From the IMG/VR virus record IMGVR_UViG_3300032287_000965, positions 1 through 64,000 of that record: a stretch of 64,000 nt of DNA; one strand, written 5' to 3'. The position numbers and the translations under genes were made by a program. Positions 4,710-60,172 of this stretch are shown here, in pieces. The number at the start of each line of letters is the position of its first letter. The stretch's first letter is position 1. The notes under the pieces are model-generated. The model ran no database searches. It was not told the origin of the DNA and worked only from the letters and a program-made list of their open reading frames with translations. The DNA is from a virus.

Positions 4710-4711
4710 GG

Positions 4712-5659
4712 TTAGCCACCACCAATAAAGTACTGTCTTGGGACAAACCGTACAGCCGCCCGATCCTGATCTTCATTTGCCGCGTTGTTCCATGCCTCGT
4801 CATACTGCGCCTTCAAGACATCCAGCCGTGCCAGACCTTCTGGGACTTTTAGCGCAATGTAGTACGCCAAACCTGCTGCCAAGCAGGGGATAAAACGAAA
4901 CGGTACATCCATGGTTTTAGTGCCGCCCGTACCTGCATCCTGAATACGGCGCATACGCCAGTAAACGAACTGGTAGGTATAGGCGCTGTCTGGGGTTGGC
5001 CAGACGGTAATGCTCTGCTTTTGTACGGCGTATATGGCCGCGCTTACCAAGTGCGCTGTTGCCGTTGTATTGTCCTGCCCGCGTGTGCAGTTAAGCAAGT
5101 ACGCAGGGTTGCCGTTTTCCGCAGGTTGAGTCTGATTAAACCCAATCAACTCTGTGCCGATGCGAATGAAGCCAGCAGTTGGGATGCCTGCCAGCGAAGT
5201 CACAGGGATGGTTGTAGCTGTTGCCGAGATGCCTGCTTGCAACGTACCCACAAGTAAGGACTCACTACCCGACAGACGCTGCACCCAAACCTGAATCGGA
5301 CGGCCTTGAATCAGCTTGTTGGGGATGGTGGCGTAAGTTGAAACTGAAATGCGGGTGATCGTCAGATCCGCTTGGTTGTTTGGCTGGTTGGCGTTAGTGC
5401 GAATAACATGGTCAAGCAAATCAACAGTATCGTCAGGAAGTGCATACGTTGGTTGCCCCTGTGTCAAAGTAATCGTGTTCTGCTCGAACGTCCACATGTT
5501 CACGCCACGGTTTGCCCAATCGGCAAAAAGGAGGTTCAACGACCTCCGGGCTGTACGCAGATCATAACCAGTACGCAACTGACTCCCGGCGCGTTCGAAC
5601 GCCTCCTCAACCATTTCGTTGAGGTCAAGATTAAAGCTGGCTGTACCGGATGTGGTCAT
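4712..5659 (-). CDS. P22 gp4-like head-tail adaptor / tail accessory protein
   Basis: 315 residues. The N-terminal helical part contains MVEEAFERAGSQLRTGYDL and ARRSLNLLFADWANRGVNMW, as in gp4-type adaptors. A beta region follows with TLTQGQPTYALPDDTVDLLD, a central insert with repeated Thr/Ala strands (about 135-200), then PDSAYTYQFVYWRMRRIQD and a C-terminal helix. The family binds below the portal and closes the packaged head. The position downstream of capsid genes and next to a zinc-ribbon protein supports this. An internal insertion may enlarge it relative to P22 gp4. Confidence 0.7.
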   Translation of the reverse strand: MTTSGTASFNLDLNEMVEEAFERAGSQLRTGYDLRTARRSLNLLFADWANRGVNMWTFEQNTITLTQGQPTYALPDDTVDLLDHVIRTNANQPNNQADLTITRISVSTYATIPNKLIQGRPIQVWVQRLSGSESLLVGTLQAGISATATTIPVTSLAGIPTAGFIRIGTELIGFNQTQPAENGNPAYLLNCTRGQDNTTATAHLVSAAIYAVQKQSITVWPTPDSAYTYQFVYWRMRRIQDAGTGGTKTMDVPFRFIPCLAAGLAYYIALKVPEGLARLDVLKAQYDEAWNNAANEDQDRAAVRFVPRQYFIGGG

Positions 5660-5892
5660 TATCTAAACCCTGCTGTTTTCTTTGCAATGCCTTTAGGCTG
5701 CGCTACGAACTGCTTGCCTGCTTTCTTCCCTGCCCGCTTTGCCTTCGTCGTGGCGGCATACTCGGCTGGGCTTAACGCCTTAATCGCCTTTTCCGGCAGG
5801 TACCGCTCACCGGTCTTTGACGACGGCTTTCCGCTTTTGGTTCGCCATTTCTGGTCTCCCCAGTTTTTCAACGACTGTTGCGGGGCTTTCAT
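5659..5892 (-). CDS. Small basic conserved phage protein
   Basis: 77 residues, Lys-rich. It contains WGDQKWRTKSGKPSSKTGER, then YLPEKAIKALSPAEYAATTK and KQFVAQPKGIAKKTAGFR. This is a family I recall from many aquatic phages, with no known function. It starts inside the stop of the upstream gene (ATGA). It is one of a run of small basic proteins between the adaptors and the capsid. Nucleic-acid contact in the head is possible but unproven. Confidence 0.7.
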   Translation of the reverse strand: MKAPQQSLKNWGDQKWRTKSGKPSSKTGERYLPEKAIKALSPAEYAATTKAKRAGKKAGKQFVAQPKGIAKKTAGFR

Positions 5893-6491
5893 CGCATCTT
5901 ACCTCGTGTTTTACCGCGCTGCGCTATTCCGTCTGCGCGAGATGATGCTGACTTTACAGCACCCCCCTTGTTCATTTTTTCTGCGTCTTTAAACCGTACT
6001 GCTTTACCTTCTGGCACTTTGCTTCTGGGTACGCGCATGGTAACAACACCCTCACCACCTTTCCATTCCCTGCCAAACTTACCAACTTTATCGCCGCCAC
6101 TCCACCACTTCTCATCGCCCGCACCGTATTTGGGTTTTGGGTTTCTCTCAAAATATCCAGATTTTTTTGCTGCTTCATATTCCGCTTGCGACATATTTCT
6201 GTACGCGTGCGTAATATCTTTATCACTAGTCGGCATACGGACTGGAGAACTTTTTAACCGCAGCCCCTCTGATGTAACAACTTGGTTTCTAACATAAGGG
6301 CGCGTTGCCATTTCTGCGGTGCTCAATGCCCTTTTCCCCAAACCCAAACCAATTAAATCTTCTGGGCCTACAGGAGATGCTTCTAACGCTTGCTCACGCT
6401 CAAGTTGCCGACGGTATGCTGGGTCACGCATATCCCGTGATGGCATATCCATCACTGATCCCCCATCGTCAAATCTTTTGCGCTTTTTCAC
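5889..6491 (-). CDS. Conserved virion-region protein, possible ADP-ribosyltransferase-like fold, with SRADGIAQRGKTRGK tail
   Basis: About 200 residues from a GTG at 6491, two bases past the upstream stop; earlier in-frame starts would lie inside that gene. The start reads KKRKRFDDGGSVMDMPSRD. The middle has THAYRNMSQAEYEAAKKSGY, then GAGDEKWWSGGDKVGKFGR and VVTMRVPRSKVPEGKAV. The order Arg, then an aromatic/Ser region, then a beta strand loosely resembles small ADP-ribosyltransferase folds, but I cannot place the final Glu pair with confidence. The C-terminus carries a basic tag shared with two neighbours. Confidence 0.6.
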   Translation of the reverse strand: MKKRKRFDDGGSVMDMPSRDMRDPAYRRQLEREQALEASPVGPEDLIGLGLGKRALSTAEMATRPYVRNQVVTSEGLRLKSSPVRMPTSDKDITHAYRNMSQAEYEAAKKSGYFERNPKPKYGAGDEKWWSGGDKVGKFGREWKGGEGVVTMRVPRSKVPEGKAVRFKDAEKMNKGGAVKSASSRADGIAQRGKTRGKMR

Positions 6492-39054: not shown

Positions 39055-39202
39055 ACGTGGGCAGGGGTTCTTCGTCCCTTGTCTGGACACGGAGGCCGTC
39101 ATACAAGACGGCCTCCGCAAAGCTTTAGCTCACCGCATCTTCCACGCCAAGGCCAGCGTGGGAGTAAAGAACGGCCTTGTCGGGGTCTGGTTTAGTCGGT
39201 GA
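39011..39202 (+). CDS. Small conserved phage protein overlapping the PrimPol end
   Basis: 63 residues. It starts in another frame within the last 44 bases of the primase gene and ends 11 bp inside the convergent giant gene. It reads VTYPWSQLKRGQGFFVPCLD, then GLRKALAHRIFHAKASVGVK and NGLVGVWFSR. This YPWxxLKxGxGFFVPxLD pattern belongs to a small conserved phage family of unknown role. The conserved pattern argues that it is real despite the overlaps. Confidence 0.75.
   Translation: MKKTLQVTYPWSQLKRGQGFFVPCLDTEAVIQDGLRKALAHRIFHAKASVGVKNGLVGVWFSR
39091..39116. terminator. Hairpin at the convergent operon junction
   Basis: A perfect 10-bp stem GGAGGCCGTC / GACGGCCTCC with a 6-nt loop, 37 bp past the primase stop and within the 63-residue gene. 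No T run follows on either strand, so it may be a factor-assisted terminator, a polymerase collision block or a transcript-stability element. Confidence 0.55.
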
Positions 39203-42200
39203 CCGACAGGAACTTTTCAACATAGTTGTTGCGAATCTTATCAATCTGCTCAACCCGCTTAGTCTTATCTTCTTCTGACATAAACGGATTGGCAATTACA
39301 TCGCGGCGCAGTTTCGACAGTTCGCCCACCTTCTGTTGCACAGTGCCTGACAACGAAGCGTAAATTACTTTGTTGCGGTACTCATCCAAAAACTCACGGG
39401 CTTGATCCCGCTTGCCTTCTGTCAGCAACCTACCGAATGTCCCCTTGGCTTGCTGAATCTCCAACATACGCTCGTACCCTGCATCCAACGTGCCCCGGCC
39501 TTCAACCGGCTGGAACATACCGCCAATGAACGGCGTGTCGTGCATCTTCTTGGTGGGCTTCGCTACTTCAGCAGCTTCCGTATTCAACAGCGGGTTGGCC
39601 AATGACACCAACGCAATACCCAAAGAACCCGTGTAGCCACGTGTCAGATGATCCCAACCGATTGGCGTGATGCCTGCATCACCCGTGATGCCGCCCAGCA
39701 ACTTGGCAAGTTCAGTCGTGGACTCACGATAGCGTTCGGTTGGCAGCATGGTTTTGACCTCGCGCTGCGACTCGATGTCACCGGCAAAGAACGACTTACC
39801 CAGATACAACTCAACAACGGGCTTGACCGCTTGCGGCAGACTGAGCGGGTTCGACAGCGCCACCAGCTTACCCATACCCTTGGTGATGTCCTCTGACTTC
39901 CTATCGTCAGCGCCCATATTGAACACCGCCTCCGGCAACGCTTTGAACAGGTAGCCCAATTCAAATGGGATAGGCACCTTCAGCGGCTCTTCTTCGCCCG
40001 GAATATAAACAAACCAGTTAGCCAGACGCTCTTCAGGCTTGGCGTTTTTGTACGCTTCGTCATCTTGCATCATGGCGGCGTACGCCATCGTGCCTGCGGC
40101 CAGCAGCAACCCGCGTTGGAAAAGCTTCTTGCGAATCTCAAGCTGCTCATTAAACGGCATCTCGCCTTTGAATGCACGGTACAGAACGTCGAGACCCTGA
40201 ATCTGCGCATTGAAGAACGGGATCATGACACTCAGCGCTTGCATACTGGGAGACAAACCACGACGGCTAAAGTTCATCGACTCCAGCGTACGCAGCAGCG
40301 CCTCCATCTCCGACATGCCTTTGGCAATCGAATCTTTATAAACAACCGCACGAGTAGCAGCATCGCCTTGCATCGCAAACGCATCAGCACGAGCCATTAG
40401 TTTTGCCCAGCCCGGTTTCCCCGCTGTTATGTCACGCAAGGCTTTGTCCATATCGCGCTGGTCGCCAGTAAAGACGTTACTGGATATGGCACCAGAGGCC
40501 ATAAGCTTGCGCTCTACTTCGCTGCGCCCGGCCACCATACTGGAAAGTTCCTTGAACGAATTCAAGATCGGCACACCGCTAGTTCCTGTGGTCATCCATG
40601 CAGTCAGCGGATCACGGATAGCCTGCTTCAAGGCGTATGCTGGGTTGCGAGTCACGAACTTACGCAGGATGTCGGCAGGCATACCCATCGCCTTGATCGC
40701 AAACGGCAGCGTGGTCTTGATACCTTCCATACCTTTGACGATCAGATCAGCTGGGATGCCAAAATCGTTGCTGTCAATCACCGCAAAGTGATCTTCGCCC
40801 TTGACTTTGAAGCGCACGGTGTTGGGGCCAGAAGGACCACTACCTTCATCCAGTGTGCTGGCAATACCCAGCTTGCGCAGGAGGAACGCAGAGTCCTTGA
40901 CCATCTGGTTACGCAAAGCCATGTTCGTCAGCATGAACGTGTTCTGCACGGCGCTGGTAAAGATCGGCATGATCTGGTCGTTGCTGCCCACCAGTTGCTG
41001 AAGCTCTGGCTCATCCTTGATATTACCAATACGAACAGGACGCTCTTTGTCCACCATCAGTTCAACAACGTCGCCGTTCATGCGGTAGAACGGTACATAA
41101 GGCAACGCCTTCAATTCAGCGGCTTGCTTCTGCGACATAGCGCCAGTCTGCACAAGGAAATCTACCAAGCCGTTGTTGTACTCCTGATAGATTCTATTGG
41201 CTTCAACGAACGCATCTTTGGCTTGCGGGTTCTGCTTCAGATACGCCATGACTTCAGCGTGTTCTGCTTTAGACCGAGCAGGGTCTTTCAGGTTCAGCTT
41301 CTCCCAGCCCACCTTCTCAGCGCGAAGACCTGCAATATATGCGGTCAGCATCGCTTCGGCTTGGGTGTCGTTCTTGATGCCGGACTTCGACAGGGCTTCT
41401 GCCACCTTAATCATGTTAGCGCCGGGACGGCTTTCGTAAATGTAGCCCTTACCGTCATCCAGTTTTTTCAAATGCAAAGAACCACTGGTCAGCGCCTGAG
41501 TCGCATACTGGCTGCGCTGCTCACCAAAACGAAGGTAGTACTCACCCTGTGTCGCTTCCAGCGAACTGATAAGCCCCTCGTCCTTACCCTTCTTGAACGC
41601 CTCAGACAACGCAGCAAAGCGGTCAACAAACTGCACCCGGCCTGTCAGACCAAGGATGTTGCCCATCAGGGTATCTTTTGTTGACTTCGACTTACCAACA
41701 AACGACGAGGCCATATCTGTTGGCTCTTCTTTCGACCGGAAAGAAAAGAAACCCGGCTTCTCTTCCTGAACGCCAACGTCCTTGGGGGCGTAGCGTGGCT
41801 GTTCTGGAACCTCAACATAGTCAGCGTCAACAACTGTTTCTTCTTGCTTTAATTCCGGTGCAGTCAACTCACCAACCATAAGCGGCTCAAACTGTATGTT
41901 CTTTTTGGCTACGCCAACCGAAGCCAAAGCTTCTTTTATTTTTTTAATAACATTATTTAGTTCGGGCAAGTCACGGTTTGTTATCAACGAACGCAGTTGA
42001 AACTGCAAAACGCCTTCTGCATCTATTCCAGTACTGGGCGTCCCAAAGTATTCTTCTTGCCGTTCCAATCGAGTGTCAAAATTAGCATTAAATTTTGCAA
42101 AATCATTTGGCGTCATTAATTTAAACAGTTCTTTGGCAAACGATTGCATTTGCTTTGCCACAGAATAATAAGCGTCTTCACCAAAATCTTTAATAGCACT

Positions 42201-45200
42201 AACCACAAGCGCGCTGTCTTCCGGGGTAGTAATGCTACCGTCCCTGTTTAAAACAACTTGACGTTTAACGCTGTACACATCTGCGGGAATAGTAGTTGAA
42301 AATAAATCAAAAGTTGCATCTACTATTTTTCTTGTGTTAGGTTCGTTATCTATTACATCAATTTGAGTTACATCTGGCGCTATCAAATGCAGCGTGTTAC
42401 CGCCAGCATTAAGTGTTAAACGATTAATACGTGCGTCGCCATCCAACAATAAAGTAGCGTAGTCTCTCGAAGATTCAACAAACTGTATTTGCGTTCCATC
42501 TGCCACACTTAGTGTTGGCATTACGGGGTCTTCGCCACGAACAAGCACTTCAGTTATGCTTTTAACTTTAGGCAAAATAAGCGCGTCTTCGGTTTGTCCC
42601 ATGTACACATGCTTTACCTGAACAAGTTGGGTAAACTCAATGTTATTTTTTGCCGCAAAGTTAATAGTGCCCAGCGCTTTAACATCTGTTATTTTTGTTG
42701 CAAACGATACGTGGCCGTCGGAAATTCTGCGTAGTGCTTTGTACACATACGCAATTTTTTCTTCTGGCGTCTTTCCACGAGGCAACAAAAGTGTTCGACC
42801 ACTAATTTGAATGCTTTCTGCTTTTTGAGCTACTGCATCAGCGGCAATTTTTTTAAAAATTTTATCCGCTTGCTCTTGTATGCTATCCCGTTGAGCAGTA
42901 CTAAAATACGGCGCTGGAAGACTGACTGACACAACCCCGTTTGCATCATTGCGATCCCCGGTTAAAGTCAAAGAGTCCATAAAAAAGTGGCCTTCTTTAT
43001 ACGCATTAACGGCAGAGCGCACAAAAACATCATCTACTTTACGCACTACTTTTTCTGACACATACGTGCCGTAACCAAACATTGGAAGATCCTGTAAAAA
43101 ACCTGTTGTAATTTTAGTTTTTGAATCTTCTAACGCCTCAGCCATGTGTTGTTTTGTCGTACTGTCTGCGGCTTTAAAGAAACGAACGGTTTGTTCTGGA
43201 GTTAGAGTTCCTTCGGTTTGTATTGCATCAAGCATTACTTTTCTAAACTCAACGCCATCCAAATAGTCTTGGCTGCCAGCAAAACTTCTCTTCTTTAAAA
43301 AATCAGAAGCTATTTTTTGTTGCGCATCAGACAAAGATTGGTTGGGTGTATTTCCGCGAATCTCCCCGATTGATGTTGTACCATTCATTCGAATGGCGAC
43401 TTCTGGCACACCGTTACTGTAGTAAATGTAAAAATCGCCTCTGTTCAACTGTTCTTTTGCAGTACCGACATCTCTACCGGTACACCACGAAGTACCCGCC
43501 GCTCCCGCGTTGAGAGCTACTGCTGCATCATAGTCGTCGGCCTGCGCAAACTTCTTCCAACCCTGCTTGCCAAGATTTAATTGTTTGTTGCGATCCGCCC
43601 GTTTTTGCAACCCATCAAGGAACGCATCTTTCAGTCCTTTGCCAGCGCGAAGCTCTTCAATAATTGCGTTGGCGGAGTCATGCCCAATCACAGCAACAGG
43701 GTGAAGGTTGTCATCGGATATGGTTACGAGTTTTAACCGCCCGTTTTTATCCGCTATAACACTGTACTTAGACGCAGCTTTAGCCACCAACGCCTGTTCT
43801 GCCAGCGTGTAATCTGGGTTTTGACGTAAGTACTCCGTTAAATCTATGATGTCTTGAATTCGTTTTTTATTAACGTCATCCGCCTCAAGCATTTGATCGG
43901 ACGGGTCCATTGATGCATACGCAATTACTTGCGGGTCAGCGGTAAAAAAGTCTTCTACGTTTGACGCGTCGTACTGTCTGCCATCAGGCATACGACTAAA
44001 AGAATCCCAATTAATAGCGGTAACAAATGCCTGTTTTATGTAGTCTTCCGGATGTGTGTTCATCATGGCAAGATAACCCGCCGCTAAACGATCCACATCT
44101 TCTGGCGTACGGTCTTTCTGTTTGATCTCAGGACCAAACTGTTCCGCAAACTGCTTCATCGAGTTACTACCGGTGTGCAGCGCCGCAATGTCTTTGGCTG
44201 AGTACTTCCTACTGACCGGTTTTTCAGCACGACCAATCTTGCTGCTGGAAGGAATCATCAACAGATCAACAGCTTTGAGCGCATTGCCCAGCATGTTCTC
44301 TGGAATCTTCACGCCAAGCATACGCAGGATGACGCTCTTCAGACCTTCCCACAGGCTGGAGCCTTTCCACTTCTTATTGCGCAGTTGCTCTTGTAGGTTC
44401 CTGTTCGAGAAGACTTCAGCAGCAAACTCGGACAGGCTGCTCTTGGCGTTGGCGCTGGTGATCTTGGGGTCGTTCTTGATCGCGTTGTACATTGCAAGCA
44501 GTTCGCGCTTGGCGGCAATCTGCTCTTTGGTCAGCATGCTGTCCGGCATCTGGATCACGCGCTCGACAGCAGCGTGGGTGGCCTCGTGCAACAGAACTTC
44601 TTGAGACAGACCGCCATTGCGTGACAACTGAATCTGGGTGCTGATGGCTTCGCCCAGTACTTCCTTGCCTTCTGAATCAAACAGTTTGTCTTTAAGGACA
44701 ATGTCCGTAGCGTCTAGCATACCGGCCAGACGCGCCGCAACCACACGATTTATTTCAGATGCCTTGGGGTCATTGGCAATGCTGCGCAATACACCAGCGA
44801 GGTTGTTCGCCTCCAGCATCTTGACTTGTTCAGGCGATAAGTCGGGGCTTTCAACTTCCACACCACGGGCAAACTTGCCTTGTTCTTTCTCTCTTGCTTC
44901 AACTTCCTTTATTACTTTTTCTTGGGCGGCTTTAGTCATCGCCACCTGCATGGCGGTGCCTTTAGCTTCTTTGGCGGCTCGTGCTCTTTGGGTACGCTCA
45001 CGGGCTTCTTGACGTTGTTGATAGTCAAAGGCCTCCCCTTTAGCTTCAGACTGTCCTGCTTCAAAAGCTTCTTGACGACGTTGCGATGCCGACTTGCTTT
45101 CTTCCGAACTGGTACGCATACTGCCCAGCTTGGCAATCTTACGAGTAACTTGCGGAGTGCGTAGGTCTTTAACTTCCTGTTTACCCGCAGCAACCGTTTC

Positions 45201-48200
45201 GCTGTACTCTTCTTGTGCTTTAGCAACAGCCGCTTTGAACTCAGGCGCAGCTTTACCAAGTTCCGCTGCTTTGGCTTGCAAGTCTGCAAGGACAGGCGCT
45301 TCGTATGCGCGGAAGGCAGCCAGCTTTTCGTTAGCCGCTTTAACAAAGCTGGCTTCAGCGGTTTTGTACCGTTCGTTTTTTGGCGTCTTAACATTTATTA
45401 AGTGCGCTTCAAGGCTGTTTACTTTCTTATCAGCCTTTTCTTTCTCTATCGGATTCTCATCCGGCACAGCATCACGCACTGCAATCGCCGTTTTTAATTC
45501 TTGTTCAACACGAGCAATCTCTTTTGGGTCCGTATACTTTTCTTTCAACGCAGCCAACTTCTCCTGACCGCCGGTAAGAAATTTGTTGTACTTGTCAGCG
45601 CGATTCTTTAGTTCTTTTAAACGCGGCGCAGCGTACGCAGTATAGGCTTCAGTCTTCTCACCAAGCTCTTTGGCAATCTTTTCTTTGTCAACCTTCACCT
45701 TACCCGCTTGCACTTTGGCGGCGGTCTTAACTTGTCTGGATGTATCACGCGCAGACTTGCCCAGCTTCTCCAGTTCTTCCTGCTTCTGGCGGGGAGTCTT
45801 AATTGTTGGCTCACCCTTGGTGCCTTCAACAGGCGCAAACTCACCTGTCGTCTTGTACAGCTTGGCTAGTTCAGCATCAAGCTGCTGACGGTACTTTGCT
45901 ACCTCATCAAACTTATTCTGGTACTTGGCTTTTGCTTTTTCTACTTGCTGTTTCTTCTTGGCAATCTTGTCGGCAGGCGCTTTTGCTTTCTTCAGCGCAG
46001 TAAGCTGCTCTTCACGGGCATTGTAGTCATCCCACAGATCGTGCAGTTGCTGGAGAAGTGAGCGAACCTGAACCTTCTTGCCGTTGACTGTACGAGAACG
46101 AGGCGCTTCCACAATGTTGCGCAGACGAAGAATCTCTTTAGCCGCTTCTTCCGATACCGAAAACTCCACGCGCTCGTCACCCACCGTAGCTTCGTACGTG
46201 TCGTAGTTCTTTTCCCGACGCAAGATACCGCCGATGCGGTTTTTCAACAGTTCGTAGATTTCTTCACGCGGGGTCAGCTTCGAGTGCTGGGCGTTAAACG
46301 CAGCACGGTCGGCCTTACGGCGTAGCTCAAGAACACGATCTATCGTCTTCTGGTCGTTATTATTGATTGCCGTATTGAGCAGGTTGAAGTTGCCGTACAG
46401 CTCGTCGCTGCTAAACTGGCCTTCAAGCTTTTCTTTTACTGCTTTTGTTGGCTTGCCTTCTTTTAAGGCACCAATCTCGTTCTCAAGCTGCCGTACTCGC
46501 ATCAAAGCTTCGTGCTTTTGATCTTCGTGTTTATTACGGTTGTACGCATCCATTGGCCGCGTATCTTTTTGCAGCAAGGCGTTTAGTTCTTCCCGCCGTG
46601 TAGCCAACACACTCTCGCGCTGGGCAACAGCTTTCTTTGCTGCTGCGCCTAGTACTGCCTGATCTGGGCGCTCTGGTCCTTGTCCTGCCTGCTCAAGTTC
46701 TGTGGCTGTGTACTCGTCGCCCTTCTCTGTCTTGAACTTCAAGACTTCCTCGGACTTAGGCTGCGCCTCGTCCGCCCCAAACATCGGAATCTGTTCACCT
46801 GCTGGGGTTTCTTTGACGCGCAGCATATCCTGCTTCTTGCGGAAGGACTCTTCGGCTACAGCGCGTTGGGCTTTTAACTTCTCAAGCTGCTTCTCTGCTT
46901 TTTCAACAGCATCGTAGTCGCGCACATCGGCGCGGCTCATCTCACTGATGGTGTTCTGTAGCTTGGCAATCTTGGCGTCGATGGCCTTTAAGGTCTTGGC
47001 CTGTGTGCCTTCAATCTCTTCACGGGACTCGGTAAAGCCGCCAAGCTCCTCGATCTTGGCTTTAAGCGCCTTGGCTTTGGCTTCATTATCGCGGTATTCC
47101 GCGATCAAACTACGCGCCACATCGTCTTCACCAGCAGTACGGGCAGCTTCAATCTTCTCAGCCAACGGATCTAACGAGGCATTCAGCGTCTCGTAGCTGT
47201 CCATCAGCTTGTAGACATCGTACTTCTCTGGCGGTGCGGGCAGCATTCTGGTGGGTGGGGTGTACCCAAGCTGCGGCAGTTGCTCTGGCGCAGGTAGCGC
47301 CAGTAGTTCTTGGTTGCCTGCGGGTTGCAGTGCGTCCAGTTCCGATACGGGTGCTTCAGGCGGAATCTCAGGCCGAGGTTGTACAGGGGTTCTTCCAACG
47401 CCTTCCAACATGCTGCCGGGGATTGACAACGCACCACCAAGGACAGCGCCGCCCACGAAGCTGTCGAAGTATTCTTTACGGGCTTCTGGGTCATTGATTG
47501 CCAGCCCTGCTTGCAGGCGCTCCAGTACTTGCTGCCCAACTTCGGTACCGCCTTCTACACCCGCCGCTGTAAACGCAGGGGTGATGTACTTTTGCACAAT
47601 ACCCGCAGCTTCTTTATTGCCGATCTGCACCCCGGCACTGCTAAAAATTTTGCGGATACCGGGGATATAGCGGAAGCCAATTACATCAAGGGCGGCTTGT
47701 GGCACCGCAGTAATGGCGGCTTTGCCAAACTCAAGGTCTTCAGGCCGTGCACCTCTTTCAAGCTGGCGTGTCAGGTTCGAGCCAGTAAACTGCCCTGCGG
47801 ATGCCAAGCCAGACAAACCAAGCGCTGCTGGTACTCCCAGAGGCGCTGCTGCTAAACCTACGCCCAAAGGCGCGGCCATGTACGGCAACGAGCCGCCCAG
47901 AACACTCTTAAAAAACTCAAACGGCTGGTCTGTAAACTCTGGCGTGAAGGCAATTTGTGCAGCTTTTTTGCGGTGCGCGGCAGCGGACTCAGCCGCACCT
48001 TCTACGCCAAACCCCGCCAGAAACGCATCTTTATCGCCCAGCAGGCGCTCGATGCCCGCTCTGAAGTTGGCTTTAAGTCCCGACTGAGGCTGCGGTACGG
48101 GTTCTTCGACAACAGGCGGCGTAGTTAACCTGCGCAGTTCGTCTGCCAGTATTTGCGCATTTTCCGTATCACCGGCTTCATGCGCCTTCAAAAACGCACG

Positions 48201-48224
48201 TTCAAGCTGTCGAAGAGTTGTCAT
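39192..48224 (-). CDS. Giant polyvalent internal virion protein (3010 aa)
   Basis: 3010 residues, read from ATG at 48224. The N-terminus (LRQLERAFLKAHEAGDTENA) matches the start of polyvalent proteins. Residues about 110-160 are hydrophobic and Gly-rich, suited to membrane insertion. A long Lys/Glu/Ala coiled coil covers about 340-1100. A zinc peptidase motif H1213-EAT-H1217 follows. Residues about 1361-2118 are an AT-rich insert with GTSWCTG (1577-1583) and a solenoid-like region. The end has an LPD38-like domain (KQAIRDPLTAWMTTG, then IPFFNAQIQGLDVLYRAF). Such proteins travel inside the capsid and enter the host (inference from family). Confidence 0.8.
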   Translation of the reverse strand: MTTLRQLERAFLKAHEAGDTENAQILADELRRLTTPPVVEEPVPQPQSGLKANFRAGIERLLGDKDAFLAGFGVEGAAESAAAHRKKAAQIAFTPEFTDQPFEFFKSVLGGSLPYMAAPLGVGLAAAPLGVPAALGLSGLASAGQFTGSNLTRQLERGARPEDLEFGKAAITAVPQAALDVIGFRYIPGIRKIFSSAGVQIGNKEAAGIVQKYITPAFTAAGVEGGTEVGQQVLERLQAGLAINDPEARKEYFDSFVGGAVLGGALSIPGSMLEGVGRTPVQPRPEIPPEAPVSELDALQPAGNQELLALPAPEQLPQLGYTPPTRMLPAPPEKYDVYKLMDSYETLNASLDPLAEKIEAARTAGEDDVARSLIAEYRDNEAKAKALKAKIEELGGFTESREEIEGTQAKTLKAIDAKIAKLQNTISEMSRADVRDYDAVEKAEKQLEKLKAQRAVAEESFRKKQDMLRVKETPAGEQIPMFGADEAQPKSEEVLKFKTEKGDEYTATELEQAGQGPERPDQAVLGAAAKKAVAQRESVLATRREELNALLQKDTRPMDAYNRNKHEDQKHEALMRVRQLENEIGALKEGKPTKAVKEKLEGQFSSDELYGNFNLLNTAINNNDQKTIDRVLELRRKADRAAFNAQHSKLTPREEIYELLKNRIGGILRREKNYDTYEATVGDERVEFSVSEEAAKEILRLRNIVEAPRSRTVNGKKVQVRSLLQQLHDLWDDYNAREEQLTALKKAKAPADKIAKKKQQVEKAKAKYQNKFDEVAKYRQQLDAELAKLYKTTGEFAPVEGTKGEPTIKTPRQKQEELEKLGKSARDTSRQVKTAAKVQAGKVKVDKEKIAKELGEKTEAYTAYAAPRLKELKNRADKYNKFLTGGQEKLAALKEKYTDPKEIARVEQELKTAIAVRDAVPDENPIEKEKADKKVNSLEAHLINVKTPKNERYKTAEASFVKAANEKLAAFRAYEAPVLADLQAKAAELGKAAPEFKAAVAKAQEEYSETVAAGKQEVKDLRTPQVTRKIAKLGSMRTSSEESKSASQRRQEAFEAGQSEAKGEAFDYQQRQEARERTQRARAAKEAKGTAMQVAMTKAAQEKVIKEVEAREKEQGKFARGVEVESPDLSPEQVKMLEANNLAGVLRSIANDPKASEINRVVAARLAGMLDATDIVLKDKLFDSEGKEVLGEAISTQIQLSRNGGLSQEVLLHEATHAAVERVIQMPDSMLTKEQIAAKRELLAMYNAIKNDPKITSANAKSSLSEFAAEVFSNRNLQEQLRNKKWKGSSLWEGLKSVILRMLGVKIPENMLGNALKAVDLLMIPSSSKIGRAEKPVSRKYSAKDIAALHTGSNSMKQFAEQFGPEIKQKDRTPEDVDRLAAGYLAMMNTHPEDYIKQAFVTAINWDSFSRMPDGRQYDASNVEDFFTADPQVIAYASMDPSDQMLEADDVNKKRIQDIIDLTEYLRQNPDYTLAEQALVAKAASKYSVIADKNGRLKLVTISDDNLHPVAVIGHDSANAIIEELRAGKGLKDAFLDGLQKRADRNKQLNLGKQGWKKFAQADDYDAAVALNAGAAGTSWCTGRDVGTAKEQLNRGDFYIYYSNGVPEVAIRMNGTTSIGEIRGNTPNQSLSDAQQKIASDFLKKRSFAGSQDYLDGVEFRKVMLDAIQTEGTLTPEQTVRFFKAADSTTKQHMAEALEDSKTKITTGFLQDLPMFGYGTYVSEKVVRKVDDVFVRSAVNAYKEGHFFMDSLTLTGDRNDANGVVSVSLPAPYFSTAQRDSIQEQADKIFKKIAADAVAQKAESIQISGRTLLLPRGKTPEEKIAYVYKALRRISDGHVSFATKITDVKALGTINFAAKNNIEFTQLVQVKHVYMGQTEDALILPKVKSITEVLVRGEDPVMPTLSVADGTQIQFVESSRDYATLLLDGDARINRLTLNAGGNTLHLIAPDVTQIDVIDNEPNTRKIVDATFDLFSTTIPADVYSVKRQVVLNRDGSITTPEDSALVVSAIKDFGEDAYYSVAKQMQSFAKELFKLMTPNDFAKFNANFDTRLERQEEYFGTPSTGIDAEGVLQFQLRSLITNRDLPELNNVIKKIKEALASVGVAKKNIQFEPLMVGELTAPELKQEETVVDADYVEVPEQPRYAPKDVGVQEEKPGFFSFRSKEEPTDMASSFVGKSKSTKDTLMGNILGLTGRVQFVDRFAALSEAFKKGKDEGLISSLEATQGEYYLRFGEQRSQYATQALTSGSLHLKKLDDGKGYIYESRPGANMIKVAEALSKSGIKNDTQAEAMLTAYIAGLRAEKVGWEKLNLKDPARSKAEHAEVMAYLKQNPQAKDAFVEANRIYQEYNNGLVDFLVQTGAMSQKQAAELKALPYVPFYRMNGDVVELMVDKERPVRIGNIKDEPELQQLVGSNDQIMPIFTSAVQNTFMLTNMALRNQMVKDSAFLLRKLGIASTLDEGSGPSGPNTVRFKVKGEDHFAVIDSNDFGIPADLIVKGMEGIKTTLPFAIKAMGMPADILRKFVTRNPAYALKQAIRDPLTAWMTTGTSGVPILNSFKELSSMVAGRSEVERKLMASGAISSNVFTGDQRDMDKALRDITAGKPGWAKLMARADAFAMQGDAATRAVVYKDSIAKGMSEMEALLRTLESMNFSRRGLSPSMQALSVMIPFFNAQIQGLDVLYRAFKGEMPFNEQLEIRKKLFQRGLLLAAGTMAYAAMMQDDEAYKNAKPEERLANWFVYIPGEEEPLKVPIPFELGYLFKALPEAVFNMGADDRKSEDITKGMGKLVALSNPLSLPQAVKPVVELYLGKSFFAGDIESQREVKTMLPTERYRESTTELAKLLGGITGDAGITPIGWDHLTRGYTGSLGIALVSLANPLLNTEAAEVAKPTKKMHDTPFIGGMFQPVEGRGTLDAGYERMLEIQQAKGTFGRLLTEGKRDQAREFLDEYRNKVIYASLSGTVQQKVGELSKLRRDVIANPFMSEEDKTKRVEQIDKIRNNYVEKFLSVTD

Positions 48225-51350: not shown

Positions 51351-52439
51351 TTAACCCTTTTCCATATCGTGCAGAAGCAACTCTGCCAAACCTGCGGGGA
51401 TGTCTTTATCTCTAACCGCACCGCCTTCAGCGCCAAACACAGGGTTCTTTCCGCCAAACAAACCGTAGGCTGTCAGCCCCAAACCGCCAATCTGTGACAG
51501 CATAGAAGGCGGCGCTTGATATTGAACCTGACTCTGCTGCCCCAACGGCACACCACGCAGGATGTCCGACATGAACGACAACTGCTGCTGCGGGTAGCCG
51601 CGCTGGGTAAGGAAGTCTTGATAGGCTTGAGTAAGTCCTTGCTGCTCTAAAGCTTGCTGCTGGGCACCGGCGGCTGACTGCGCTTGGATTGCTCCCTGCT
51701 GTTGGCCGAACTGAGTTTGACCCAACTGACCCAACGTATTTGCGCCTTGTAGTGCTTGACCATAACCACGAAGCCCTAAATCAGCACCAAACTGCTGTGC
51801 TTGACGGGCTTGTTCAAACGCAGTCTGCATACCTTTGCCGTAGATGTCGGCTTGCTGCTGACCTAAATTGCGCTGGCGTTCAGCTTCTACAATAGCCGAG
51901 CGGGCACCACCAAAAGCACCACGTTGTACGGCTTGTGCTTGGTTCTGTTGACCTAGTATGTTTGACTGCCGTGCAGCTTCTCTTAGCTGCGGAGCCATGG
52001 CGTTTTCCATGTACGGCGACATGTACGACTGCATAGCGTAGGGGTTCGTAGCCTGTTGTGCGTACTGCCGACCTGCACCGAGACTGCCAAGCCCTGCCTG
52101 TCCTGCTAACTGTGTACCAATTCCCAACTGCTGCGCGGGGGCAAGATTGGCTGCGGATTGCTGCGCTTGTTCTTGTAATGGGGTAAAGCCCGCAGTTCGC
52201 TGCCCACCGTAAGCTTGATATGGAGTCTCCGAAAACGCTTCGGCCTTGCCCAACATACGTTCAACATACGGACGCGCATATTCAGGAATCGTCGTTGTAG
52301 TTTGCGTAGTATTAGTAGGCTGAGACTGCCCGCCACCACCGCCTTGAGGTTTAATCTTACGGTCGCCCGTATGTTTAAAGGCTTCTTCTGGCAAGTCAGG
52401 TATGCCAGCTAGTGCCATTGCGCGGTTGTTGAATCTCAT
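51351..52439 (-). CDS. Gln/Ala-rich internal virion protein
   Basis: 362 residues. After a Gly/Gln linker (KPQGGGGGQSQP) come helical Gln/Ala repeats (GFTPLQEQAQQSAANLAP, LGQQNQAQAVQRGAFGGARS, RQRNLGQQQADIYGKGMQTA). The C-terminus has SMLSQIGGLGLTAYGLFGGK, a possible membrane-active helix, and AEGGAVRDKD. This corresponds in place and composition to T7 gp14-like internal core proteins. The gene overlaps its neighbour by 4 bp. Confidence 0.75.
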   Translation of the reverse strand: MRFNNRAMALAGIPDLPEEAFKHTGDRKIKPQGGGGGQSQPTNTTQTTTTIPEYARPYVERMLGKAEAFSETPYQAYGGQRTAGFTPLQEQAQQSAANLAPAQQLGIGTQLAGQAGLGSLGAGRQYAQQATNPYAMQSYMSPYMENAMAPQLREAARQSNILGQQNQAQAVQRGAFGGARSAIVEAERQRNLGQQQADIYGKGMQTAFEQARQAQQFGADLGLRGYGQALQGANTLGQLGQTQFGQQQGAIQAQSAAGAQQQALEQQGLTQAYQDFLTQRGYPQQQLSFMSDILRGVPLGQQSQVQYQAPPSMLSQIGGLGLTAYGLFGGKNPVFGAEGGAVRDKDIPAGLAELLLHDMEKG

Positions 52440-52843
52440 AATTTTTCCCTCATCACCTGATGGGTGTTGGTCATGCCCATTTTTTCGTACATCTGAACCA
52501 GCGTACCTTTAGCCCAGCACTGTGTGGTTGTAGCGCCCATTAGGCGCATCCAGTTTTTAGCTTCTTCAAACACGTGCGGGCGGACGATGCCTTTGCCGCC
52601 CATCAAATTCACATGCGCTACGCGCTCACGCGGGTAGTCAATAATGTCTACCGTTACAGCACCAGTAATACCCTCGTCTGGCTCATCCCAGATCAACAAG
52701 TAAGTACGCCCAGTACGAACAGCAAACTCAACTTGTTCAATCGTAATTAGTTCTGGGTCTAAATCAATTGCACGTTGCAACATTGGTGCAGCGATTGGCC
52801 ACACTTGCGGTAACTGCGCCGGGGTAATTTGATAAAGCGCCAT
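52436..52843 (-). CDS. GNAT-like internal virion protein
   Basis: 135 residues, MALYQITPAQLPQVWPIAAP at the start. The order of strands and helices (GRTYLLIWDEPDEGITGAVT, then RERVAHVNLMGGKGIVRPHV and MRLMGATTTQCWAKGTLVQM, YEKMGMTN) follows a GNAT fold, including the final motif with a helix before the last strand. T7 gp13-type proteins near the internal core genes have such a fold. The acetyl-CoA-binding Q/RxxGxG/A is not clear, so it may be structural. Confidence 0.65.
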   Translation of the reverse strand: MALYQITPAQLPQVWPIAAPMLQRAIDLDPELITIEQVEFAVRTGRTYLLIWDEPDEGITGAVTVDIIDYPRERVAHVNLMGGKGIVRPHVFEEAKNWMRLMGATTTQCWAKGTLVQMYEKMGMTNTHQVMREKL

Positions 52844-54628: not shown

Positions 54629-54928
54629 TTAAATCTCCTTCTTCATCAGTACGAGGCCCATGTTTTGCCCATACTCGTGTAATCCGAACATTGCGATAAG
54701 TTTACGCGCTTTTGTGTCATTTTCAAAAGGTGTTGCGTATACTTCATTGTAGCCTTCGGCTTTTAGCCCCGGCGCAACTACGTTAACAAAAATACTACGG
54801 TATTTCTTAAACTTGGAAGGTGACCACGCTCCCGGTGTTATGTTCAAGTGCAGCGCCACTTTATTAATCTCTGACAAGTAATCGCAGAGAAAGCACACGT
54901 CCTCGTCTTCGTACAGCGTCTCTCTCAT
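54629..54928 (-). CDS. GNAT-fold-like small virion-region protein
   Basis: 99 residues. Start MRETLYEDEDVCFLCDYLS; the core has KKYRSIFVNVVAPGLKAEGY, then NEVYATPFENDTKARKLIAM and FGLHEYGQNMGLVLMKKE. The final strand-helix-strand (ENDTKARKLIAMFGL) resembles the C-terminal half of a GNAT fold, as does the gene at 52436-52843. The two flank the large internal protein. Catalysis is unproven. Confidence 0.6.
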   Translation of the reverse strand: MRETLYEDEDVCFLCDYLSEINKVALHLNITPGAWSPSKFKKYRSIFVNVVAPGLKAEGYNEVYATPFENDTKARKLIAMFGLHEYGQNMGLVLMKKEI

Positions 54929-55241: not shown

Positions 55242-57149
55242 TTATCTCCTACCGTCAGGCCGCACATCAATACGGGGCACACCCAACTGCCACTGCGTAC
55301 CGATCGAATTTGACTCCACCTTAAACGCCATCTGTCTGCCACGGATGCGGGAGTAAATAATCTCCGTGAACTGCTGCACGTTGTAGGTAGTCGTCCCAGC
55401 GTAGCTTTGCGCTGAGGTTACCGTGGGGTTGTCCGCAACACCATAGTTTGAGCCGGGGTTCTGGCGTGGGCGCACCGTGAAGTTTACCACCGGGTTGTTT
55501 GTTGTCTCCCCGGTTGTGCTCGAACCGTCAAACGTAATATCCGGGATGATGCGCCAGACGAAGCCGTAGTTGTGGCCGTCACCAATATCAAAGTCCGAAG
55601 ACTGCACGTAGGCATTAATAGCACTGGGCGGGTTAGTACTACCGTCGTCCACCGCCGCTTCGTGGTACACAAGGATATTGCCAGCCGTTGCCGCTGTCGG
55701 GTACGGACGCAGGGGCGAATCCAACCAAGCCGTACGATCTAAGGTGCCGTAATACCAGACCCGGTCAAGGTAGTTAAAGATGACGTAGCGGTCGATGACA
55801 GTCGAGTTCTTAGAGCAGTAGTTCCACCAGACTTCTGAGTAGCCCTCGTTGGTGCCAGCATTGAACTGCGCTTCCTGATCCCGGTTAATATCATTGAAGA
55901 TATAAGTACGCACCGAGCAAGGCAGTGTCTCAACCCGACCAGAGTAAGCATAGAACTTATCCACGCCCATCCAGTACACCACACCGTTGGCTGTCGCCAT
56001 AGCATTTGGGGAGGCGATTGAGATATTGTCGGCGAGCAGGGTGAAGCCGTACACAAACGGTGGCCCAAGATACTGCATCGAGTAAATAGCAGCGTCCGTC
56101 CATACCACGATTTCTTGACGAGTTTGCAATGCTCCAACAATTGTAGAACCGTGAGACAGGCGGTAACTACCCGCTTGGTTTGTTGCAGATGGCGTCCAGT
56201 CGGTGTAGCTTTCCTGTGCAGTCCAGCGGATAAGCAGCGGGTCTATGGCTGTTGTGCCATAAGCGCCGTAGTCGTTACATCCAAACGCAATAACAATCCG
56301 CGAGGTGTCAGACACCATAATCTCGTTAATCAAAGCCGGAACGTCCGTGCCAGACACCAAAGAGCCGCGAGTACCATAGGCAGGAGTTGCGCCACCACCG
56401 GGTTGCCACAAGTAAAGAGCGCCGCCACGTGGCGAGAACAGCAAGTCTTCGCCAAAGTTGGACTGGCTCCACAGGCGCAACTGCAAACCAAAACCTGTAG
56501 TAAAGCCTGAACCCCAAGAGCCGCGTGACCAAGCGCCCGTGCCCCAGCCAGTGCCGATGGTGTAAGTGGCAAAGCCCGTATTGATCTGATAGGCAATCGT
56601 TATTGTTGAAGCGGAGTTGCTTCCGGTTGTAGCAGTAGCCAACGTAACTGTATAGACCGTACCTGAAGTAACAGTCGCAATCTGGTACTCACCATTAACA
56701 TTCACACCACCAATCGTACCGGCACCTGCTATGGTGACAAAGTCATTAACCTGCAAGTTATCTGCGGCGCTGTCTGAAACAGTTAATACCGTACCGCTGG
56801 CAGTAAGCGTGATCGTAGAAGCATTAACTACAGGGGGGCCAGCAGAAGGTGTGTTGCCGTTTATTTCACGTAAGGGCGTGATGTCGTAGTAAGTACCGCC
56901 GTCTTCGATGTAGAACTTCAGGTTGGTGCCAACACCCATCAGGTTGTAGCTTCTAAGCGTTACCCAATTCCACAACGAGCGGCACACACCAAGGAAAGTG
57001 TTATACGACAGCGCAGCCCAGCCACCGATCTTCTCAGGGTAGCCAGAACGAAAACGCACCTTGTCGCAGTCGTAGTAGCCGCCCTCGTTAGAAAGCGTTG
57101 TGCCTTCGCGGTTTACGCCGGGGCGGAACTGTAGCTGTTGTAGTGGCAT
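55242..57149 (-). CDS. Tail stabilisation / nozzle-like protein
   Basis: 635 residues from the ATG at 57149 (GTGGAAGAC site). The start MPLQQLQFRPGVNREGTTLS, then NEGGYYDCDKVRFRSGYPEK, is the mark of a family I remember as P22 gp10-like packaged DNA stabilisation proteins. Residues about 110-165 form an inserted Thr-rich beta domain. The main body has repeated beta-propeller-like segments (TAIDPLLIRWTAQESYTDW, VVYWMGVDKFYAYSGRVETL). It probably plugs the tail channel. Confidence 0.75.
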   Translation of the reverse strand: MPLQQLQFRPGVNREGTTLSNEGGYYDCDKVRFRSGYPEKIGGWAALSYNTFLGVCRSLWNWVTLRSYNLMGVGTNLKFYIEDGGTYYDITPLREINGNTPSAGPPVVNASTITLTASGTVLTVSDSAADNLQVNDFVTIAGAGTIGGVNVNGEYQIATVTSGTVYTVTLATATTGSNSASTITIAYQINTGFATYTIGTGWGTGAWSRGSWGSGFTTGFGLQLRLWSQSNFGEDLLFSPRGGALYLWQPGGGATPAYGTRGSLVSGTDVPALINEIMVSDTSRIVIAFGCNDYGAYGTTAIDPLLIRWTAQESYTDWTPSATNQAGSYRLSHGSTIVGALQTRQEIVVWTDAAIYSMQYLGPPFVYGFTLLADNISIASPNAMATANGVVYWMGVDKFYAYSGRVETLPCSVRTYIFNDINRDQEAQFNAGTNEGYSEVWWNYCSKNSTVIDRYVIFNYLDRVWYYGTLDRTAWLDSPLRPYPTAATAGNILVYHEAAVDDGSTNPPSAINAYVQSSDFDIGDGHNYGFVWRIIPDITFDGSSTTGETTNNPVVNFTVRPRQNPGSNYGVADNPTVTSAQSYAGTTTYNVQQFTEIIYSRIRGRQMAFKVESNSIGTQWQLGVPRIDVRPDGRR

Positions 57150-57151
57150 GG

Positions 57152-57880
57152 TTATGTCTTCCACACGTAAAATGTTACGCCACCTATTGCGTACGTAGCT
57201 ATAGGCTCCCAGTCAGGGTAGCAGTAATCGCCAGATATAACGATCTTTCCCGGCGCAAGCTTTTTGATGCTGGGTAGTGCTGCTTCGCACAGTGGACGCC
57301 CAAGGTACATATAAATCACCGTATACGGCGTCAAGTCCGCGCTAACCAAATCGCCTTCTATAAACGTAACGGGAGTGTTAGCAAGCTCGGCTTCAATCTG
57401 GCTTTGTCTGTACAACACAGGATTAACTTCCACGCCTGTTGCCTGCATACCGCACTTAGCGGCTGCAATAGCAACGCGCCCATTACCACACCCAAGGTCC
57501 ACAAACTTATCCGACGCACTTAACTTAAGATTGCTAAACAGCGTACTAACCGCATCAGCGGGGGAAGGAGAAAAGCCTATGTAGATTGGCGGTTTATTTG
57601 TTGAGACCCATGTATAAGACTCTTCGTCCAACACGTACGTGAAACCGTCGTGCGGCATAGGCTCCAAAAACACATCGCGCTCAGAGACATACTGATACCC
57701 AATACCTGCAAACTGCCTACGAAAAACCCCGGAATAGCTAGTCTGCTTCCAGTTAGTATCAGCGCCCAGTAAGGCACGGCAAAACTCAACACCCGCCTCT
57801 TCAGTGGGGGCATCCTCATCACTAACTACGATGACTTGAAGTACGTAGTTGTTGTCGTCAAGCTGTGCAAAATGCGCCAT
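57152..57880 (-). CDS. Virion-type domain fused to a SAM-dependent methyltransferase
   Basis: 242 residues. Residues 1-95 match a tail-region domain common in phages (MAHFAQLDDNNYVLQVIVVS, later FAGIGYQYVSERDVFLEP and TYVLDEESYTWV). Residues about 105-242 are a class I methyltransferase with motif I VDLGCGNGR (127-135) and motif II GVEVNP (149-154), then the FIEGDL and LAPGKIVISGDY strands. The usual protein ends after the first domain. The target could be a virion protein, a small molecule or host protein; it is unknown. Same strand and close spacing to tail genes. Confidence 0.8.
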   Translation of the reverse strand: MAHFAQLDDNNYVLQVIVVSDEDAPTEEAGVEFCRALLGADTNWKQTSYSGVFRRQFAGIGYQYVSERDVFLEPMPHDGFTYVLDEESYTWVSTNKPPIYIGFSPSPADAVSTLFSNLKLSASDKFVDLGCGNGRVAIAAAKCGMQATGVEVNPVLYRQSQIEAELANTPVTFIEGDLVSADLTPYTVIYMYLGRPLCEAALPSIKKLAPGKIVISGDYCYPDWEPIATYAIGGVTFYVWKT

Positions 57881-57882
57881 AG

Positions 57883-58680
57883 TTAGACCGTAAAAGTTCC
57901 AGACGAAGTGAATGTGTGCACCACGTAACCGGGGCGAGAAGATGTGCTTATGTTGCCGCCCGACGCTCTAGGCACCAAACCGACATAAGCGATGATTACT
58001 ACGCCGCTACCGCCCGATCCAGCACTACCGCCTTCTGTAGCACCACCACCGCCACCACCAAGATTAGCGCCACCACCGCCACCGTTAGCATTGCGCCACC
58101 CGCCTGTACCACGTCCGTAGGTTGTGGGGCTTGACCATGAACCGCCATCAGAGCCGCTGGAGCCGCTACCACCACCTGCATATCCTACGCTTGAACCTGT
58201 GATGGAATAATCAAGACCGACACCACCTATACCGCCGGGAGAAGTAAACGCCTGACCTTGTGGGCCCCCGCCAACTGCACCTGCCCCGCCACCACCGCCG
58301 CCGGGCGTATAGTGATTACCAGTAGCTGAACCGCCAGCATTACCTTGCCCTGCTGTGCCTGAACCAGCGGTAGGGAAGTTAGTACTAGTACCGCCACCAC
58401 CCGAACCGCCGCTCCCGCCACGTCCATTACCACCGCCTATTGCTGTGTAGCCAAACCCCGTAGTATTACTACCATTAGAGTCTGACCCACCCCCGCCACC
58501 TACGACAATGGAATACGCCCCAGAAGCAATAGCCAAACTGGAGTTGTAAATTAGACCGCCCGCACCGCCACCGCCACCACCATCAGCACCGTTTCTAGCC
58601 CCGCCACCACCTCCCGCAATGATTAATACTTCTGCGGTGATGGGTAGTTTTGTGCCGAATAAAAGTGCAGCGATGCCCAT
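57883..58680 (-). CDS. Glycine-rich tail-tip protein
   Basis: 265 residues. After a short start (MGIAALLFGTKLPITAEVLI) the sequence has many Gly runs separated by variable loops (GGGGGARNGADGGGGGGAGG, GGGNGRGGSGGSGGGG), and ends with a beta part SRPGYVVHTFTSSGTFTV. This is the layout of T-even gp38-like adhesins, where Gly stretches form a polyglycine type II core and the loops contact receptors. It shares TAATG with the upstream fibre. Expected to define host range. Confidence 0.75.
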   Translation of the reverse strand: MGIAALLFGTKLPITAEVLIIAGGGGGARNGADGGGGGGAGGLIYNSSLAIASGAYSIVVGGGGGSDSNGSNTTGFGYTAIGGGNGRGGSGGSGGGGTSTNFPTAGSGTAGQGNAGGSATGNHYTPGGGGGGAGAVGGGPQGQAFTSPGGIGGVGLDYSITGSSVGYAGGGSGSSGSDGGSWSSPTTYGRGTGGWRNANGGGGGANLGGGGGGATEGGSAGSGGSGVVIIAYVGLVPRASGGNISTSSRPGYVVHTFTSSGTFTV

Positions 58681-59648
58681 TAGGAGACTCCAGCGCCTGT
58701 TATAACGAAGGTATTACTTGCGATACACAGCACCGTGCAGAGGCCATAGCCACCCAGAGTCCGATTGCCTGTCAAGCCCGAAGAAGCCAGCGTCATGGTT
58801 GTACCGCCGCCTTGAGTGATGGTCTGGCTAGAGCCTGAGTTGTTATAGATAGCCACCGCTTGCCCTGCGCTAAACACACCTGACGGTACCGTGACGCCAC
58901 CTGTCGTAATAGACACAACTTGACCTGCATCCCCAACAACCAATGTATATCCAGTAGTTTTATTCTGTACCGGTAGATTGCGCACGTTACCGATGGTGTC
59001 AGCAATGCTTGTCATGCCAGACATGGTGCCGCCGGTTATAGCTACGTTGTTAGCGTTTTGGGTGGACATGGTACCCAGCGCACTAGTGGTTGCCGTAACG
59101 AACGCCGTAGTCGCAGCCTTGGTCGTGTTGTCTCCGGGGGACTGAGTTACGAACGTCGCATTGCCCGCAACCGAGAAGTCTCCTGTAACCGTAGCGTTGC
59201 CGCCAAAGCTCATGTTGTTTACGAAATGGTTTAGCTGCTCCACCACGTTGGTGCCGTCTGCACGAAGAAGCACTGACTTGCCTGTTGGAATAGCTACGCC
59301 TGTACCCGCTGCTGTGGTATTACCAATAACGGTCGAGCAATACACAGTGGCTGTGTAGCCTGACGGGTTGGTAACTAAGTACAGCTTGGTTACCGGTGGT
59401 ACGTACACAGCAAAGTTGGCACCGGTGGTTGTAGTTAGGCTGAGAGCCGCGCACCGTGCTTGGTCAGCTGCGCCATTCTGAGCAGTCAGCGCTTGGTTTG
59501 CGGAAGTGACTGAGACCGATGCCAAACCCGAGATAGCGTCTTCGATAATGACACCAAGGTTGTCGTTGGTGATCGTGCCCCACGTACCGGTCTTCTCACC
59601 GTTGGCAATCAGTTCAATCCGTAGATCGGGGGAGTATGTACTTGGCAT
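58680..59648 (-). CDS. Tail fibre protein
   Basis: 322 residues from the ATG at 59648 (AAAGGAAATACG). The start STYSPDLRIELIANGEKTGT, then WGTITNDNLGVIIEDAISG, is the standard opening of a class of phage fibres. Residues about 170-210 have SFGGNATVTGDFSVAGNATF and the NTTKAATTAFV motif, typical of fibre shafts. The C-terminal part is Gly/Thr-rich. The glycine-rich protein directly downstream probably caps it. Confidence 0.8.
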   Translation of the reverse strand: MPSTYSPDLRIELIANGEKTGTWGTITNDNLGVIIEDAISGLASVSVTSANQALTAQNGAADQARCAALSLTTTTGANFAVYVPPVTKLYLVTNPSGYTATVYCSTVIGNTTAAGTGVAIPTGKSVLLRADGTNVVEQLNHFVNNMSFGGNATVTGDFSVAGNATFVTQSPGDNTTKAATTAFVTATTSALGTMSTQNANNVAITGGTMSGMTSIADTIGNVRNLPVQNKTTGYTLVVGDAGQVVSITTGGVTVPSGVFSAGQAVAIYNNSGSSQTITQGGGTTMTLASSGLTGNRTLGGYGLCTVLCIASNTFVITGAGVS

Positions 59649-59659
59649 CGTATTTCCTT

Positions 59660-60172
59660 TTAGGCAATCATGGTTTCCGCGTGGGTTTTGGCTTCTGCCA
59701 CACGACGCAGCCATCCTTTACCGAACGTGCCAAACGTAGGCAGACTGCGGTAAAACGCTTCCTTTTCTGCACTGAATTTTGCCACTAATTCGCTCTGATT
59801 GGCATCTTTTAATGACTGCATAGTTTTGGGGCCGATAGCACCGTCCGGCGTTGTGCCAATTGCTTTCTGCATTGTCTTAATTGCACGACCGGGACCTGCG
59901 TTAATTGCAAAGTCGAACATCAGGTAGTCCAGACCATCCGGCAGATCGTCAGCCTTGACCGCATCCCAGTACTTCTTCTTGTACATCGGGCCTACCGTCT
60001 CAGGTGTCAGAGCGCGCATTGCCTTTTCGTCAACAGCATGGCCTACCCATTCTTCCCAGACTTTCTTGGTCACGCCCAGATTGGTCATGCCGCCGGGGTC
60101 TTTTGGATGATTTACGAAGCCACCCTCGTGCTTCAGGATAGCGTTAAGGGCTTCTTGGAAGTTCTCTTTCAT
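59660..60172 (-). CDS. Endolysin, GH108 muramidase with peptidoglycan-binding domain
   Basis: 170 residues. The N-terminal catalytic part has E16 in HEGGFVNHPKDPGGMTNLGV, the hallmark of GH108. The middle YLMFDFAINAGPGRAIKTMQ and the C-terminal IGTTPDGAIGPKTMQSLKD belong to a PG_binding_3 domain. It lacks a signal peptide, so it needs the holin to reach the wall. It lies in the lysis cassette next to Rz/Rz1 and holin. Confidence 0.9.
   Translation of the reverse strand: MKENFQEALNAILKHEGGFVNHPKDPGGMTNLGVTKKVWEEWVGHAVDEKAMRALTPETVGPMYKKKYWDAVKADDLPDGLDYLMFDFAINAGPGRAIKTMQKAIGTTPDGAIGPKTMQSLKDANQSELVAKFSAEKEAFYRSLPTFGTFGKGWLRRVAEAKTHAETMIA

Follow-up and report, generated by a model that had tools for sequence, protein, structure and literature searches.

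The viral DNA analysed here carries a single gene in which a domain of a tail-fibre-locus family, phrog_7759, is joined to a complete class I methyltransferase, and the same fusion was found in two other, independently assembled contigs. The catalytic half is shown by sequence matches and structural models to belong with the aKMT/FAM173 group, and its predicted SAM-binding site is intact. None of the annotated phages searched here has this combination, whose two halves are each of a known kind. As a tentative reading, based on sequence, models and analogy, the protein could be a methyltransferase associated with tail assembly, in which the N-terminal domain aims the enzyme at a fibre or tail protein and a lysine of that protein is methylated.

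Organization of the fusion gene

The window, that is, the whole stretch of DNA that was analysed, comprises positions 1 to 64,000 of the IMG/VR record IMGVR_UViG_3300032287_000965, a 66,342-base viral contig. Genes of this contig encode a terminase, a portal, an SU10-like adaptor, a DNA-ejection-like protein, a family A DNA polymerase and an endolysin, which is consistent with a short-tailed phage as the source virus.

The fusion gene lies at 57152..57880 on the minus strand and encodes 242 amino acids followed by a stop codon. A preliminary description of this DNA had given these coordinates, which proved right; the gene is a single uninterrupted frame with 0 internal stops across 242 codons, and it starts 2 bases past the stop of the upstream gene at 57883-58680. 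Residues 1-95 (57596..57880, minus strand) form the N-terminal tail-locus domain, and residues 100-242 (57155..57583, minus strand) form a class I methyltransferase domain that is aKMT/FAM173-like in its model, PDB and fold matches. The claim that the two reside in one protein was borne out by the matches to phrog_7759 and to the PDB entries 5bxy and 5fa8 described below, and sequence alignment located the SAM-binding motif I, VDLGCGNGR, which had also been reported, at residues 127-135 (57476..57502, minus strand). The AlphaFold model of the fusion had a mean pLDDT of 92.9 and a pTM of 0.68, with pLDDT values mostly >87 in the N-terminal domain and a less confident stretch between the domains, at residues ~90-110.

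The N-terminal domain

The phrog_7759 profile matched residues 1-95 with an E-value of 3.4e-27, over model positions 1-98 of 125. This is a small tail-fibre-locus family with members in cyanophage T4-GC616, pelagiphages and phage DSL-LC04, among others; a Pfam search with the domain gave no fitting family. The domain had been described as one that normally ends the protein. The match itself held up, but ordinary relatives extend beyond residue 95, since most are 116-147 aa long (139 distinct proteins, the best-scoring subset of >580 relatives). Most ordinary members have an extra W/Y-rich beta-hairpin, corresponding to residues 107-118 of the modelled L041, and an ordinary member modelled with a pLDDT of 93.7 showed a strand-helix-strand start followed by three hairpins. 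Two of these hairpins are kept in the fusion; the C-terminal W/Y hairpin is absent, and the methyltransferase takes the third position. Some short members, such as L027, likewise lack the C-terminal hairpin, and it is therefore a variable and not a defining feature of phrog_7759. Some phages carry the N-domain family twice within one tail region, as diverged copies that are sometimes immediate neighbours (L011 5569-5952, L003 3862-4287 and L016 5565-5960).

A Foldseek search of the PDB with the N-domain yielded no significant match. The highest query TM-score (0.38) was that of 7ypx_a, which ranked second by E-value (E 1.0, probability 0.60) and whose chain length of 162 residues marks it as Pam3 gp25. 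As a chaperone, Pam3 gp25 holds the fibre gp24 at its glycine-rich tip (PMC9608196). Sequence kinship between the N-domain and gp25 was considered and rejected: hhalign gave a probability of 0.7%, and 253 of 1768 shuffles scored as high. The collections searched contained no relatives of gp25 from which a stronger profile could be made, and no C-terminal helical trimerisation domain was seen in the models of the fusion or of an ordinary member. By analogy, the N-domain may work like a tail-fibre chaperone such as Pam3 gp25; we do not class it as one, because the sequence tests gave no support.

The methyltransferase domain

Residues 100-242 matched class I methyltransferase models. Their best PDB match by sequence was 5bxy from Salinibacter (E 2e-16), and aKMT, the protein-lysine methyltransferase of Sulfolobus, was matched through 5fa8 (E 2.7e-13) and 5jwj (E 4.3e-12); with Foldseek, 5bxy and aKMT took ranks 1-5. 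The best NCBIfam match was the archaeal protein-lysine methyltransferase model NF041081, with a score of 39.8 bits where the cut-off is 200. As this score is far below the cut-off, the enzyme is regarded as a distant relative of aKMT and not as an ortholog.

The fusion keeps D128, G130, G132 and G134 of motif I, as well as the post-I acid E151. D128 aligns with Asp94 of human FAM173B, and the D94A substitution abolished the activity of that enzyme (PMC5828452). By residue count, G132 is the counterpart of Gly38 of aKMT, and G38R is the mutant used as inactive aKMT (PMC4639711). At other positions the phage proteins depart from their relatives. Residue 190 is Y in the phage clade and usually T in cellular relatives, while residue 217 is G where cellular relatives nearly always have H. 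In the window N133 replaces an invariant D, which L002, a second contig with the fusion, keeps; L002 in turn carries G135 instead of an invariant R. These departures, read from the sequence, suggest that substrate preference may have shifted from that of the cellular relatives.

Free-standing methyltransferases of the same family are encoded in the viral contigs L164 (which has two), L169, L172 and L173, where a start that resembles a signal peptide and a short Cys-rich segment, for example CNNPYCAMCNR, come before the enzyme. An export-like signal is odd on a SAM-dependent enzyme. L173 looks viral because of the phage-like helicase and polymerase genes nearby. Another viral contig, L168, encodes a free-standing relative of 148 aa (5986-6432) with a DOT1-like Pfam match, directly before a 1241-aa gene without an assigned family.

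Occurrence and evolution of the fusion

A search for the fusion in other genomes, as had been proposed, found it in two further contigs. In L002, a separate IMG/VR contig, the fusion is complete and 66% identical; a third contig, L163/L180, carries the first 162 residues at 63% identity before the contig ends. Gene order around the three fusions differs; in L002 the gene after the fusion is of the phrog_31104 type, and in the window it is a virion structural gene. Between the window and the other fusions, pairwise dN was about 0.25-0.32 and dS was at or near saturation in both halves, which indicates purifying selection on both. The three fused members clustered together in the methyltransferase tree (SH-aLRT 98) and also in the N-domain tree (support 100), where a single change of state was needed. 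The simplest reading of these sequences is that the fusion arose in one event. In the methyltransferase tree the phage group has a long stem and apparently groups with the viral L164/L168, a placement that a long-branch warning makes untrustworthy.

The presence of the fusion in other contigs, the constraint seen on both halves and the single event in the trees together show that it is no artefact. A frameshift or assembly error between the halves, against which the preliminary description had cautioned, is ruled out by the one open frame and by the recurrence in three independently assembled contigs, and the probability that we leave to it is negligible.

The fusion is rare. Fused members made up 3 of the 139 distinct N-domain proteins, a proportion that is only indicative because the loci are the best-scoring subset of >580 relatives. 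The other members longer than 150 aa were two proteins of 165 aa, in which the hairpin motif is repeated and no enzyme is present. The fused methyltransferase was absent from all records of a 50,697-record phage collection, and a literature search of incomplete coverage turned up neither a methyltransferase fusion in phage tails nor tail-fibre lysine methylation. L004, L025 and L026, which gave matches to residues 1-219, were rejected as further fusions, the next gene being unrelated and alanine-rich (as read in L004 and L025).

The tail locus

Directly upstream of the fusion, at 57883..58680 on the minus strand, is a gene for a glycine-rich tail protein (34% Gly, one lysine) that matched PF21722 Gly_rich_2 (E 2.6e-11) and phrog_2295. 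It is preceded by a tail-region gene with a PHROGs match to phrog_31104 (58680..59714, minus strand). Directly downstream of the fusion lies a virion structural gene of phrog_3287 (55242..57149, minus strand), whose start is most likely the ATG ending at 57149; an upstream GTG accounts for the overlap in the open reading frame list. Going by position and by analogy with Greip, the product could be a gp10-like DNA-stabilisation protein.

A glycine-rich upstream neighbour is common in this family. Scoring a neighbour as glycine-rich at >=20% glycine, we found one in 109 of 131 distinct scorable N-domain genes (again from the best-scoring subset of >580 relatives). Against this stands a background in the N-domain loci: of their 877 frames of >=150 aa, 238 were glycine-rich, or ~17% without the direct neighbours. 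The enrichment is nonetheless strong. Two of the three fusions (window and L002) have a glycine-rich protein directly upstream, and the direct neighbour in L163 is not glycine-rich. The homolog of the window neighbour in L002 is 60% identical over 119 residues, a value to which compositional bias applies. The sole lysine is K11 in the window and K52 in L002, at positions without clear correspondence. With only one lysine in the glycine-rich neighbour, another tail protein could be the methylation target.

Genes for 2OG-Fe(II) oxygenases also occur near N-domain genes. One lies directly before the N-domain gene in phage DSL-LC04, at least one lies within 4 kb of it in S-SSM5, P-RSM4, S-MS29, S-RSM4 and HTVC033P, and none is annotated near it in Greip, Bellamy or HTVC025P. 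In the viral loci L209, L210, L239, L250 and L254 the oxygenase gene is directly upstream, and the fetched flanks of 15 of 160 viral N-domain loci contained one (best-scoring subset of >580; L163 not counted). Cyanophages carry many 2OG-Fe(II) oxygenase genes, with suggested roles in 2-oxoglutarate metabolism and DNA repair (PMC3037559). Since such genes are common throughout cyanophage genomes, the association is weak there, and a role of the nearby oxygenases as protein modifiers is one possibility among others. In L163, the two paralogous genes that precede the fusion directly (4663-5720) looked by eye like double-stranded beta-helix (2OG) oxygenases; family searches confirmed no oxygenase assignment for them.

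Elsewhere in the window, a 3010-codon gene at 39192-48224 (minus strand) lies next to ejection-type genes and has LPD38, near its C-terminus, as its sole Pfam match; its product may be a giant protein that is injected along with the DNA. Two small proteins of the tail/ejection cluster (52436-52843 and 54629-54928, minus strand) resembled GNAT acetyltransferases by eye; neither had a PHROGs match, and the first had no Pfam match.

Discussion

How might a methyltransferase serve a tail locus? The N-domain, usually encoded right after a glycine-rich tail protein, would act as an assembly factor by binding this fibre or adhesin, and the fused enzyme would thereby be directed to the fibre or to a neighbouring tail protein. 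One or more lysines of the target would be methylated before or during assembly, with a likely effect on how stable or soluble the target is or on receptor binding. Because aKMT is described as having no substrate-recognition domains (PMC4639711), the addition of a binding domain to such an enzyme would be understandable. In favour of methylation during assembly we counted the fusion in three contigs, the constraint, the aKMT kinship, the glycine-rich neighbour, the gp25 analogue and the 2OG genes; against it we counted the single lysine of the neighbour, residues 190 and 217, the neighbour in L163, and the sequence and fold tests with gp25. The preliminary description had suggested that fibre proteins may be modified during assembly, and this stands as plausible, favoured by the kinship with protein-lysine methyltransferases from which we infer lysine methylation. 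The more specific proposal, that the phage aims a built-in protein-lysine methyltransferase at its own fibre or adhesin and so methylates its receptor-binding machinery during assembly, is doubtful.

It is unlikely that the enzyme instead methylates a host protein inside the infected cell, with the tail-locus domain giving only late expression or stability. The cellular relatives act on cell proteins and are widespread in bacteria, aKMT methylates many proteins (PMC4639711), and free-standing relatives without the tail domain exist in viral contigs. Such a role, however, leaves unexplained both the fusion to this particular domain, kept in three divergent contigs, and its position in a tail gene cluster. 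We consider it quite unlikely that the enzyme works on RNA, a glycan, a small molecule or a protein residue other than lysine. Several observations would fit such a target: class I methyltransferases switch substrate readily, residues 190 and 217 are substituted in a clade that sits on a long stem, the NF041081 score is far below its cut-off, and the depositors of 5bxy, the nearest relative with a solved structure, labelled it an RNA methyltransferase. The relatives found here with a known function are, however, all protein-lysine methyltransferases.

The gene sits among tail and virion genes, and some fibre-assembly proteins, those of Mu and Ur-lambda, remain on the virion (PMC9608196). By the same token the fusion might be a virion part through which the methyltransferase reaches the cell surface or enters the cell during infection, but this is distinctly improbable. 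The enzyme requires SAM, to be found inside the cell, and mass spectrometry of Pam3 virions did not detect gp25, the weak structural analogue (PMC9608196); the earlier suggestion of carriage on the virion is unsupported. A catalytically dead methyltransferase serving as a structural substitute for the lost hairpin would fit its place in the protein and the motif positions that differ from cellular relatives. Conservation of the SAM-binding residues and constraint on the domain make this very improbable.

If methylation during tail assembly is correct, an enzyme built into a tail-assembly-locus protein would modify the tail fibres of phages, and receptor recognition would gain a layer that is invisible in genome sequence alone. 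It would also offer a handle on the function of phrog_7759, which is common in aquatic phages. Even with another target, the fusion gives this family a testable binding role.

Comparison with known systems

Among cellular enzymes, aKMT of Sulfolobus islandicus (5FA8, 5FAD and 5JWJ) shares the predicted fold of the fusion methyltransferase (TM-score 0.75-0.80 by target length) and is ~31% identical to it, with a P-x-P lead-in, motif I, the post-I acid and a C-terminal W in common. It differs from the phage clade at residues 190 and 217, and the phage enzyme scores far below the curated aKMT cut-off. Human FAM173A/ANT-KMT and FAM173B/ATPSc-KMT are linked to the fusion through aKMT, from the literature, and the cellular relatives found are not joined to a phage domain. 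The Salinibacter methyltransferase 5BXY is the best solved match by both sequence and fold (TM 0.83); it is free-standing, and its RNA methyltransferase label is that of the depositors.

Among phage proteins, ordinary phrog_7759 tail-locus proteins resemble residues 1-95 of the fusion and share its neighbourhood of tail-fibre genes, but they have the extra hairpin and no enzyme. The gene for Pam3 gp25 directly follows that for the fibre gp24 (PMC9608196), as the fusion gene follows a glycine-rich gene in the window and L002, though not in L163, and the N-domain bears a weak, non-significant fold resemblance to gp25. The fusion differs from tail-fibre chaperones such as Pam3 gp25 and Mu Tfa in having neither sequence support for such kinship nor a helical trimerisation domain, and gp25, for its part, has no fused enzyme.
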